Source: Methanomicrobia archaeon (lineage in GTDB: Archaea; Halobacteriota; Syntropharchaeia; Alkanophagales; Methanospirareceae). From it: DNA of 36,181 bases. The position numbers were made by a program, and so were the translations under genes. Position 1 is the first letter of the stretch, and each line of letters begins with the position of its first letter. The notes under the pieces are model-generated. The model was given only the letters and a program-made list of their open reading frames with translations, had not been told where the DNA came from and did not search any database. The stretch is from the NCBI GenBank assembly GCA_016930255.1, contig JAFGHB010000012.1, positions 1 through 36,181 on the forward strand. Direction: 5' to 3'. Below are positions 10,206-30,897 of the stretch, piece by piece.

Positions 10206-10469
10206 TAAAAACGGTTCCGCATAATGCTGTCATATCGAATATTCTAGAAGAAAAGCGATCGAAAAGTTTTTATGGTGATTTGCCATTTTTGTTCTCACCA
10301 TAAGAACGTATGGACAAAACAGAGGCAACAAGGGTGGAGAACAAGAAGCGCTCTGTGTCGTGATTACAGGTCTCGTATCGTAACTGCGGGATATTTCAAC
10401 GCTGAGACTCCGCAAGAGACGTTCGTGTGTAAATCTCCACCAGAACTCATCTAGATTGGAGAGAAAAAA
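10206..10469. other. Non-coding leader of the AT-rich cassette
   Basis: This 264-base stretch separates DUF166 from the three-gene cassette. It contains a TATA-like run (AAAAGTTTTTATGG, near 10262) and overlapping inverted repeats at 10271-10307. A weak 60-codon ORF here has no Shine-Dalgarno and no recognisable product. The last bases supply the SD (GGAGAG, 10458-10463) for the first cassette gene. Confidence 0.5.
10271..10307. repeat. Overlapping inverted repeats upstream of cassette
   Basis: TATGGTGA (10271-10278) pairs with TCACCATA (10295-10302). GTTCT (10291-10295) pairs with AGAAC (10303-10307) around a 7-base spacer. The position just after a TATA-like element fits an operator or RNA hairpin. 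The GTTCT/AGAAC motif recurs downstream of the cassette. Confidence 0.5.
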
Positions 10470-28198: not shown

Positions 28199-28576
28199 TT
28201 ATACTATCTTGTACTTGCCTTCATAATGTAAAAAAGGTATCTCCTTGCCAGGCTCAATCCGGTCCTGCATGTCCTCCGGTATCTTTAGCTCAATTGTCGA
28301 GTAATCCTCCAGGTCCATAATCTGCGCGGTCTCCCCCATAAGCGCAAGCACCTGGCCAGTCTTTCGCTCTATGATTGGCACATAGATCTTCGTCGTAACC
28401 GGATGAACTGCCGTTCGCTTCTGCGAATCAAATACGCCAATCGCTTCCATCCTCGCTTTTGCCGCTCCGTGCTTACCCGGCTTTGAACTCGTTATGCTCA
28501 TGATCGTGCATGGCTCGTCATCTATGATAACATACTTACCTTCCTTCAACATCCTTACCTCTGTCAGTTCCTTCAT
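28199..28576 (-). CDS. eif5a: Translation initiation factor aIF5A
   Basis: A 125-residue protein. The hypusination loop is SSKPGKHGAAKARMEAIG, with Lys35 the modified lysine. The N-terminal KOW-like barrel (EGKYVIIDDEPCTIMSI) and the C-terminal OB domain (IPEDMQDRIEPGKEI) are complete. eIF5A rescues stalled ribosomes, mainly at proline-rich stretches, and this genome region encodes several Pro-rich proteins. It heads a three-gene operon (aIF5A, EF-like, CBS). Deoxyhypusine synthase is not in the window. Confidence 0.96.
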   Translation of the reverse strand: MKELTEVRMLKEGKYVIIDDEPCTIMSITSSKPGKHGAAKARMEAIGVFDSQKRTAVHPVTTKIYVPIIERKTGQVLALMGETAQIMDLEDYSTIELKIPEDMQDRIEPGKEIPFLHYEGKYKIV

Positions 28577-28666: not shown

Positions 28667-28706
28667 ACCGAAAACATAAAGTTGATTGGAGGGAGTAAAG
28701 AACAAG

Positions 28707-29711
28707 GTGGCGTGGCTCATCCTAAAGATTGTGGCTCTCTGTGTGCTTTTGCTCCTGTCAGGATTCTTCTCTGGCTCTGAAACCGCGCTCATCCGGATAG
28801 GAAAGCTAAAAGCCAGATCGCTGCTCAAAAGAGGCGTTAAAGGCGCTGATATCGTCCAGAAACTGGTAAACGAGCCTGAAGTTATGCTCACCACCGTGCT
28901 CATTGGGAACAATATCGTTAACATTGGAGCGTCCGCATTGGCTACTTCCATCGCCATCGAGTATTTCGGCGATCTCGGCGTCGGCATTGCCATCGGTGTG
29001 ATGACCTTCTTAATCCTCACGTTTGGCGAGATCATGCCCAAGACCTTTGCCGTGCACCACGCCGAGCGATTTTCCATCGCGGTTTCGAAGCCGCTGGAGA
29101 TATTGATTTTTGTCTTGCGACCTCTTGCAGCGGTTCTTTCAGTAATAACACACGCTTTTGGGAAGCTCTTCGGTCTGAAGATGCAGCAGAGCAAACTGAT
29201 CTCCGAGGAGGAGGTGAGGTCGCTGCTCGATATAGGCGAGGAGGAAGGGGCGATAGAAGAGGACGAAAAGCAGATGATGAAAGGTGTGCTCAAGCTGGAT
29301 TATATAAACGTAAAGAACGTAATGACCCCGAAGGAAGATATGATATGTCTCGACGTTAATCAAACTGTGGATTCTGCAGTAGAGTTAATAAAAAAACATG
29401 GCTATTCAAGAATTCCGGTATTTGAAAAGACAAAGAACAATATTGTAGGGATATTATACGCGAAGGACTTGCTGATAAAGGAGAGTGAGAGCACTAGTTC
29501 GCTCATGAAACTGATGAAACCTGCTCATTTTGTAAAGGAAACAGCACGGGTAGATGACCTCCTTAAGGAATTTCGTGAGGGTAAGTTCCACATCGTAATT
29601 GTCGTGGATGAAGAAAAGAAAACAAGCGGCTTGGTTAGCCTTGAGGACCTTCTGGAAGAGATAGTAGGAAGTATATACGACGAATACGACGTGAAAAAAA
29701 CAAAGAGCTAA
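28707..29711 (+). CDS. CNNM/CorC-family membrane protein (DUF21 + two CBS)
   Basis: About 334 residues. The N-terminal DUF21 domain has hydrophobic segments ILKIVALCVLLLLSGFFSGS, VMLTTVLIGNNIVNIGASAL, GVGIAIGVMTFLILTFGEIM and a proline-terminated PKTFAVHHAERF. A helix and two CBS domains (VKNVMTPKEDMICLDVNQTV and LMKPAHFVKETARVDD) follow. The C-terminal CorC_HlyC domain is absent. Family knowledge: CNNM/CorC proteins transport Mg2+ or Na+. GTG 28707 is chosen because GGAGGGAG (28688-28695) stands 11 bases before it. A TTG at 28686, which would be leaderless, is the alternative. Confidence 0.9.
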   Translation: MAWLILKIVALCVLLLLSGFFSGSETALIRIGKLKARSLLKRGVKGADIVQKLVNEPEVMLTTVLIGNNIVNIGASALATSIAIEYFGDLGVGIAIGVMTFLILTFGEIMPKTFAVHHAERFSIAVSKPLEILIFVLRPLAAVLSVITHAFGKLFGLKMQQSKLISEEEVRSLLDIGEEEGAIEEDEKQMMKGVLKLDYINVKNVMTPKEDMICLDVNQTVDSAVELIKKHGYSRIPVFEKTKNNIVGILYAKDLLIKESESTSSLMKLMKPAHFVKETARVDDLLKEFREGKFHIVIVVDEEKKTSGLVSLEDLLEEIVGSIYDEYDVKKTKS

Positions 29712-29755: not shown

Positions 29756-29842
29756 CTACTTCTTATATCTCATCCTCTTCCGTCTCTTCTTCAACTTGTG
29801 TTTCCGCATCTTTGCGACCTTTCGCTTCTTTCCGCAGGGAAT
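29756..29842 (-). CDS. 28-residue basic protein, probable AUU start, AURKAIP1/COX24(mS38)-like
   Basis: A reading frame on the minus strand encodes (M)PCGKKRK, then VAKMRKHKLKKRRKRMRYKK and stop TAG. No ATG, GTG or TTG begins it; the frame is closed upstream by TGA two codons before ATT (29840-29842). A strong Shine-Dalgarno GGTGGTGA (29849-29856) stands exactly six bases before ATT, so AUU initiation is the simplest reading. The sequence closely follows the tiny bacterial/mitochondrial ribosome-associated family recalled as MPSGKKRK..KM..HK.KKR. An internal ATG would make 17 residues and has no SD. Such peptides bind rRNA near the decoding site in mitoribosomes; the archaeal role is inferred. 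Confidence 0.65.
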   Translation of the reverse strand: MPCGKKRKVAKMRKHKLKKRRKRMRYKK

Positions 29843-29848
29843 TTGAAC

Positions 29849-29856
29849 TCACCACC
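29849..29856 (-). promoter_or_regulatory. Shine-Dalgarno deciding an AUU start
   Basis: GGTGGTGA on the minus strand differs from the consensus GGAGGTGA by one base and has a six-base spacer to ATT. A GTG inside the SD itself opens an acidic 29-codon frame, but it has no usable spacing. Confidence 0.55.
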
Positions 29857-29964
29857 TTTCTTATCTTTTAGTCCTTTCTCTTATTAAGTACTGTAATTAC
29901 ATTATTTTAAAATGCATAAATATCTTAGTAGTGTGTGTGAGGAAAAGATTGGGAAGGAGATGAG

Positions 29965-30897
29965 ATGGGGAGGATAGAGCGGCCGCCAGGTTGGATATTG
30001 AAATACAAGGAACGGGTAGAGAAAGAGGAGATAACCGTGGATGAGATTCTCGAGGAGGAGAACAAGATACGAGAGACACCAATCAAAATATCCTCGGTGA
30101 CACGGGCGATAAATGCCATGGGTCTTCCTATTACCGGATTGCGAAGCGAGAAGCGAGGCAAAAGTGAAGGAGAAGGGATAGAAGGAGAAGCGGAGGGAAC
30201 GTTCACGCCGGGCGGGACGTCGGAGGGGATAGAACGAGGCCCCGGATGGCTGCAGATATACCATGAGCGGATAAAGAACGGCACTATAACCGTCGAGGGG
30301 ATTCTCGAGGAGGAGAACAAGATACGTGCAGAGCCTATAAAGATAGCAACGGTTAAGAGAGCGGTGAATGCCATGGGCTATCCCATTAGCGGGATGCGCA
30401 GCGAGCTACCGGACGCGCTGACAGAGGGAGGCGCTGAGGGCACAGTTGAAACGGGCGGAGCATCCACGGGTGCCGAGAAAGGACCTGGTTGGCTTCGGAA
30501 ATATCGTGAGCGGATAGAAAGAGAGGAGATAACCGTAGATGAGATACTCGAGGAGGAAAACAAGATACGCACGGTGCCTATCAAGAGATCGTCGGTGACT
30601 CGCGCGGTAAACGCCATGGGCTATCCCATTAGCGGGATGCGCAGCGAGCTACCGGACGAGCTAACGGAAGGAAAAGAAGGAGTGAAACCAAAAAAAGCAG
30701 GCAGGGCAGAAGCGGTTGCGTATTCTTCTACTATTGGTAAACTATCAGAATCGACGCTGAAGCGATTTAATGCGATTAAGAAGAGCTGGGAGGCGGACTT
30801 GGATAAACCTCTGCAGAATGACTATTTTGTCAATATTCTCCTCGCGTTAGCCAAGCTTGCTGAGTATGGTAAGTCACTCGCGCCCGTGAAGAGCTAG
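29965..30897 (+). CDS. Triple-repeat protein (three ~53-residue modules)
   Basis: A 310-residue protein; SD AAGGAGATGAG precedes ATG 29965. Three modules at residues 7-62, 92-147 and 173-228 share P-G-W-L..Y.ERI, EEITVDEILEEENKIR, PIK.SSVTRAVNAMGYPISG and MRSEL. They are separated by Gly/Glu/Thr-rich linkers of about 28 residues. A distinct C-terminal segment (about 255-310) has a helical STLKRFNAIKKSWEADLDKP and NDYFVNILLALAKLAEYG. The modules have the length and helix-turn-helix rhythm of a small DNA-binding domain, but I cannot name a family. Repeats 2 and 3 share 46 identical bases, so duplication is recent. The mfnD gene follows 11 bases later. Confidence 0.8.
   Translation: MGRIERPPGWILKYKERVEKEEITVDEILEEENKIRETPIKISSVTRAINAMGLPITGLRSEKRGKSEGEGIEGEAEGTFTPGGTSEGIERGPGWLQIYHERIKNGTITVEGILEEENKIRAEPIKIATVKRAVNAMGYPISGMRSELPDALTEGGAEGTVETGGASTGAEKGPGWLRKYRERIEREEITVDEILEEENKIRTVPIKRSSVTRAVNAMGYPISGMRSELPDELTEGKEGVKPKKAGRAEAVAYSSTIGKLSESTLKRFNAIKKSWEADLDKPLQNDYFVNILLALAKLAEYGKSLAPVKS
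30370..30415. repeat. 46-bp exact direct repeat, copy A
   Basis: It encodes the end of module 2 (AMGYPISGMRSELPD) of the triple-repeat protein. It is identical to 30613-30658, a period of 243 bases or 81 codons. Confidence 0.9.
30613..30658. repeat. 46-bp exact direct repeat, copy B
   Basis: It encodes the end of module 3 of the triple-repeat protein; partner of 30370-30415. Module 1 is clearly more diverged (LPITGLRSE), so modules 2 and 3 arose or were homogenised last. Confidence 0.9.

Follow-up and report, generated by a model that had tools for sequence, protein, structure and literature searches.

The bacterial protein bS22 and the mitochondrial protein mS38 (AURKAIP1/COX24) share one ribosomal site: known bS22 relatives sit under the P site, at h27/h44/h45, and P-site contacts have been described for eL41, bS22 and mS38 (PMC7005279). 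Overlooked bS22 genes are already known from bacteria, one of them GUG-started—that of Borrelia burgdorferi, which was missed by annotation and is an essential-gene candidate (PMC10618245). Non-AUG initiation is disfavoured by aIF1 (PMC6237735), and bacterial infC, the gene for IF3, retains an AUU start codon and thereby autoregulates (PMC5472188). Here we describe an archaeal bS22 gene that is probably translated from an AUU codon invariant across its family. In an incomplete literature search, we came across no earlier description of bS22 from ANME-1, of an archaeal AUU start that is conserved, or of one that an entire archaeal family retains.

The gene lies in a stretch of 36,181 nucleotides from a Methanomicrobia archaeon, analysed here as a whole (the window). 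The family of the source genome is taken to be ANME-1, a group of methane-oxidising archaea, on the basis of a grouping of genomes, not a tree; the genome encodes aCPSF1, which marks it as archaeal.

Gene, start codon and Shine-Dalgarno sequence

An earlier note on this DNA had proposed a basic 28-residue frame opened by AUU six bases after a strong Shine-Dalgarno sequence, without giving the strand. We found both elements on the minus strand, where a frame of 28 codons runs from 29842 to 29756, opens with ATT CCC TGC GGA AAG AAG CGA, ends at TAG and recurs in relatives. The locus has the following features.

29756..29842, minus strand: bS22 coding sequence, product (M)PCGKKRKVAKMRKHKLKKRRKRMRYKK, with ATT-started orthologues in 47 genomes
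29840..29842, minus strand: putative AUU start codon, invariant in ANME-1
29758-29756, minus strand: TAG stop codon of bS22
29849..29856, minus strand: Shine-Dalgarno sequence GGTGGTGA, kept upstream of all ANME-1 orthologues
29913..29923, minus strand: probable TATA-like promoter motif ATATTTATGCA, from position and recurrence in relatives (sequence inspection)
28686..29711, plus strand: gene for a CNNM/CBS-domain membrane protein, convergent neighbour (Pfam CNNM, E=2.3e-57; synteny)
28199..28576, minus strand: gene for the translation factor aIF5A, the next gene on the bS22 strand (NCBIfam IF-5A equivalog, E=4.2e-55; synteny)
29965..30897, plus strand: divergent gene without a clear Pfam assignment, conserved beside bS22 in most ANME-1

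The spacer between GGTGGTGA and ATT is 6 nt long (GTTCAA), and the final three bases of GGTGGTGA form an in-frame TGA (29851-29849), so that just GTT and CAA separate this stop from ATT. The 16S 3' end was read from relatives as GGATCACCTCCT, the source bin being without a 16S match, and its predicted duplex with the bS22 Shine-Dalgarno site (-11.5 kcal/mol) is stronger than that of all 26 mechanically called open reading frame starts in the window (best, -10.6 kcal/mol). The TATA-like motif lies approximately 70–80 bases upstream of bS22. Apart from the Shine-Dalgarno sequence and spacer, no conserved leader was visible when the ANME-1 orthologues were compared. Judged from sequence, bS22 is a gene translated from AUU with a probability of roughly 0.9.

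The gene stands alone, flanked by the divergent gene and the convergent CNNM gene. In several ANME-1 genera no CNNM gene was found between bS22 and aIF5A, and aIF5A follows bS22 by 11–300 nt; in one genus (g5) it comes directly after bS22 (11–25 nt), whereas in the genus of the window the convergent CNNM gene lies between them. The close adjacency of bS22 and aIF5A is probably derived, because CNNM also adjoins bS22 in Alkanophagales. At some loci the divergent neighbour (29965-30897) is matched several times over, which suggests that it occurs in tandem copies or contains internal repeats.

Identity of the peptide

By sequence, the ANME-1 peptide is bS22. A profile search of the PDB gave three significant matches, all of the bS22/AURKAIP1 type and aligned end to end—Borrelia bS22 (8fmw_V; the best, with a full-length alignment and a profile E=2e-7), 9i5v (an AURKAIP1/COX24-domain protein) and 7jil (Flavobacterium johnsoniae bS22)—and a fourth that was not significant (mS38 of 8a22, E=9.4). 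The length of 28 residues, mostly Lys/Arg, fits the bS22 range (approximately 28–33). The Borrelia and Flavobacterium proteins have the same length and match it end to end (MPCG/MPSG, KKRK, HK and KKR motifs), and the Borrelia gene was likewise overlooked by annotation and likewise has a non-AUG start (PMC10618245). Both are bacterial with start codons other than AUU, in contrast to the archaeal gene with its invariant AUU.

The earlier note had likened the peptide to AURKAIP1/COX24 (mS38), a resemblance that the PDB matches uphold, with bS22 as the more precise name. The basic domain of mS38 occupies the bS22 site of the ribosome, but mS38 is a far longer protein and the ANME-1 peptide is weakly similar to Pfam COX24_C (13.7 bits, below the cut-off of 23). 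The protein eL41, known from archaea (Pyrococcus abyssi) and from eukaryotes, differs in length, with 37 residues in archaea versus 28 here, and eL41 chains in the PDB were matched by neither the profile nor the single-sequence search. No eL41 above the PF05162 cut-off was found in the source genome or 58 relatives, in a search of low power that control archaea also failed. We infer the placement of ANME-1 bS22 in the ribosome from its sequence.

Composition alone might produce such a likeness in a chance frame, given a 28-residue sequence in which Lys and Arg abound and a modest E-value of 0.0016 when the single peptide was compared with the PDB (only the 8fmw_V, 9i5v and 7jil chains were matched). 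However, none of 200,000 composition-preserving shuffles reached any of the three PDB alignment scores, the profile E-value is as low as given above, and the frame is conserved across 14 genera with synonymous variation. A chance frame is thus exceedingly improbable, and we rejected it on the conservation pattern.

Conservation of the AUU start in ANME-1

A profile search recovered the peptide from 47 of 51 family genomes, from all 15 with a completeness of 90% or more and from all 14 genera, at 85–96% identity in nearly every genome. The codon preceding PCG (PRG in one genome) is ATT in each of the 47 orthologues, and recurrence at this identity, always with ATT, places the frame far beyond chance. 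When relatives were checked for loss of the frame or stops within it, the frame was kept and no stops were found. The earlier note had expected an archaeal member with a non-canonical start to go unseen by gene callers, and this protein of nearly all ANME-1 is one that gene finders do miss.

An in-frame NTG lies upstream of ATT in two of these genomes and an in-frame GTG in both genomes of Alkanophagales, which could point to a canonical start farther upstream. Against this, the remaining 45 ANME-1 genomes have no in-frame ATG, GTG or TTG between the upstream stop and ATT, and in six an in-frame stop immediately precedes ATT. An upstream canonical start is very unlikely and was rejected for ANME-1 as a whole; this ruling does not extend to Alkanophagales.

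Third-base changes across the 47 genomes, which are approximate as minimum counts on the taxonomy and not on a dated tree, numbered zero in the start codon and 1–13 in each of the 25 degenerate codons (mean, 5.1). Codons 2–28 vary synonymously, as coding sequence does, with every one of the 25 degenerate third positions changed at least once. A single T to G change would turn AUU into AUG, and it was seen in none of the 47 genomes. The constancy of the start codon while degenerate third positions change argues for selection to keep AUU, and the AUU start is most likely selectively maintained in ANME-1.

AUU does not seem to be a general habit of these archaea, given that ATG opens aIF1 in those ANME-1 genomes where its start is readable and that, among the 27 sites from a scan of strong Shine-Dalgarno sites in the source genome (GGNGGTGA N4-7 ATT), bS22 alone is clearly an ATT gene start and one other is ambiguous. 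At one site in that genome (L263; contig C57, match 10238-10253), GGAGGTGATTAAC-ATT opens a 501-aa frame (IIIKKIEMLNFGPYYG...GGTGQGKTS) that resembles an SMC/Rad50-type ATPase by eye, the ATT following the TAA of the frame before it by one base. This frame possibly represents a second ATT start, used by reinitiation, or it may start at an in-frame GTG three codons upstream.

Orthologues outside ANME-1

The earlier note had asked whether orthologues start with ATG or ATT. Both occur, at the same position: ATT throughout ANME-1, and ATG or GTG in more distant archaeal orthologues, as follows.

Two genomes of another archaeal family (f12): ATG-PCGRKRKRAKMRKHK
Altiarchaeales: ATG-PCGRKRKIAKMRKHK, with ATG before PCG
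Archaeal families f4 and f20: ATG
Archaeal family f17: mostly GTG

In the sister group Alkanophagales (two genomes), ATA precedes PCG and a Shine-Dalgarno-like GGGGTG lies six bases upstream. Their bS22 genes appear to start at ATA, which is less certain because both genomes have in-frame GTG codons inside the Shine-Dalgarno-like stretch. The simplest history is that AUG was exchanged for AUU or AUA in the common ancestor of ANME-1 and Alkanophagales.

These comparisons also bear on the internal ATG at codon 12, present in 45 of 45 distinct ANME-1 sequences examined, from which a 17-residue peptide would be made. The Shine-Dalgarno sequence, however, lies six bases before ATT and not before codon 12, and codons 2–11 are conserved as protein. 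Some archaeal relatives and Borrelia bS22 have Ile in place of the internal Met, and in the outgroups an ATG or GTG start occupies the position of ATT. A check for orthologues starting at the internal ATG returned none, with Altiarchaeales and the two f12 genomes carrying ATG before PCG. We consider initiation at codon 12 highly improbable.

A wider search with a degenerate DNA pattern, the counts from which are lower bounds, indicated that bS22-type genes are widespread in Nitrospirota, Desulfobacterota, Sumerlaeota, Nitrospinota and others among the matches listed. Where the start was readable, the bacterial members among these matches (Nitrospirota, Desulfobacterota, Sumerlaeota and others) begin with ATG, GTG or TTG, and GTG starts recur in Thermodesulfovibrio-like lineages among the matches listed (GGGAGGTGATG-GTG type sites). 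In a 394-genome sample of the archaeal phylum, bS22 is otherwise patchy, a distribution in which loss and transfer are not separable from 28 residues. Viral contigs yielded no copy of the gene. One entry titled Candidatus Nitrosotalea (DYFG01000113.1) carries an ANME-1 bS22, and its title is probably wrong.

Proposed mechanism and meaning

We suggest that AUU is read by initiator Met-tRNA, with the strong Shine-Dalgarno sequence keeping the ribosome over the codon and offsetting its weak pairing, and that the initial Met, which precedes Pro, is probably cleaved off afterwards. The mature peptide would most likely fill the small-subunit pocket formed by h27/h44/h45 beneath the P site, the place that bS22, eL41 and mS38 take in other ribosomes. 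If AUU is under selection in ANME-1, the weak codon would have a purpose, namely to make bS22 output depend on the strictness of start-codon selection. Feedback of the infC/IF3 style, with bS22 itself altering this strictness, would account for the use of AUU.

A bacterial parallel is infC, which likewise encodes a component of translation with a link to the P site and has long conserved AUU as its start codon, as bS22 has in all 47 ANME-1 genomes. Protein and domain of life are unrelated, however, and the feedback is established for infC (PMC5472188) whereas for ANME-1 bS22 it is hypothetical. We tentatively raise the possibility of an infC-like loop built from an unrelated protein, in which bS22 seated under the P site would adjust stringency and limit translation of its own AUU mRNA. 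Such a loop would date from the common ancestor of ANME-1 and Alkanophagales, at the exchange of AUG for AUU or AUA. We know of no organism in which an influence of bS22 on start-codon choice has been proven.

The main rival arrangement, to which we give about even odds, is a real AUU-started bS22 whose output is simply low and steady, in keeping with ribosome number, the strong Shine-Dalgarno sequence offsetting the weak codon and no feedback operating. It competes only with the feedback part of our explanation and accounts for the invariant AUU, the strong Shine-Dalgarno sequence and the lack of any further conserved leader. Yet AUG with a weaker Shine-Dalgarno sequence would suffice for low output, and family-wide AUU combined with a strong Shine-Dalgarno sequence hints that the codon itself matters.

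The bS22 gene of ANME-1 shows that conserved genes escape gene callers restricted to ATG, GTG and TTG. The ribosome of ANME-1 likely gains an unannotated bS22, and the protein is extended into several archaeal groups. Placed on a decoding-region protein of the ribosome, AUU would make synthesis respond to start-codon stringency, possibly as the archaeal equivalent of infC control. ANME-1 bS22 would offer a natural, testable handle on the role of bS22, eL41 and mS38 in initiation.
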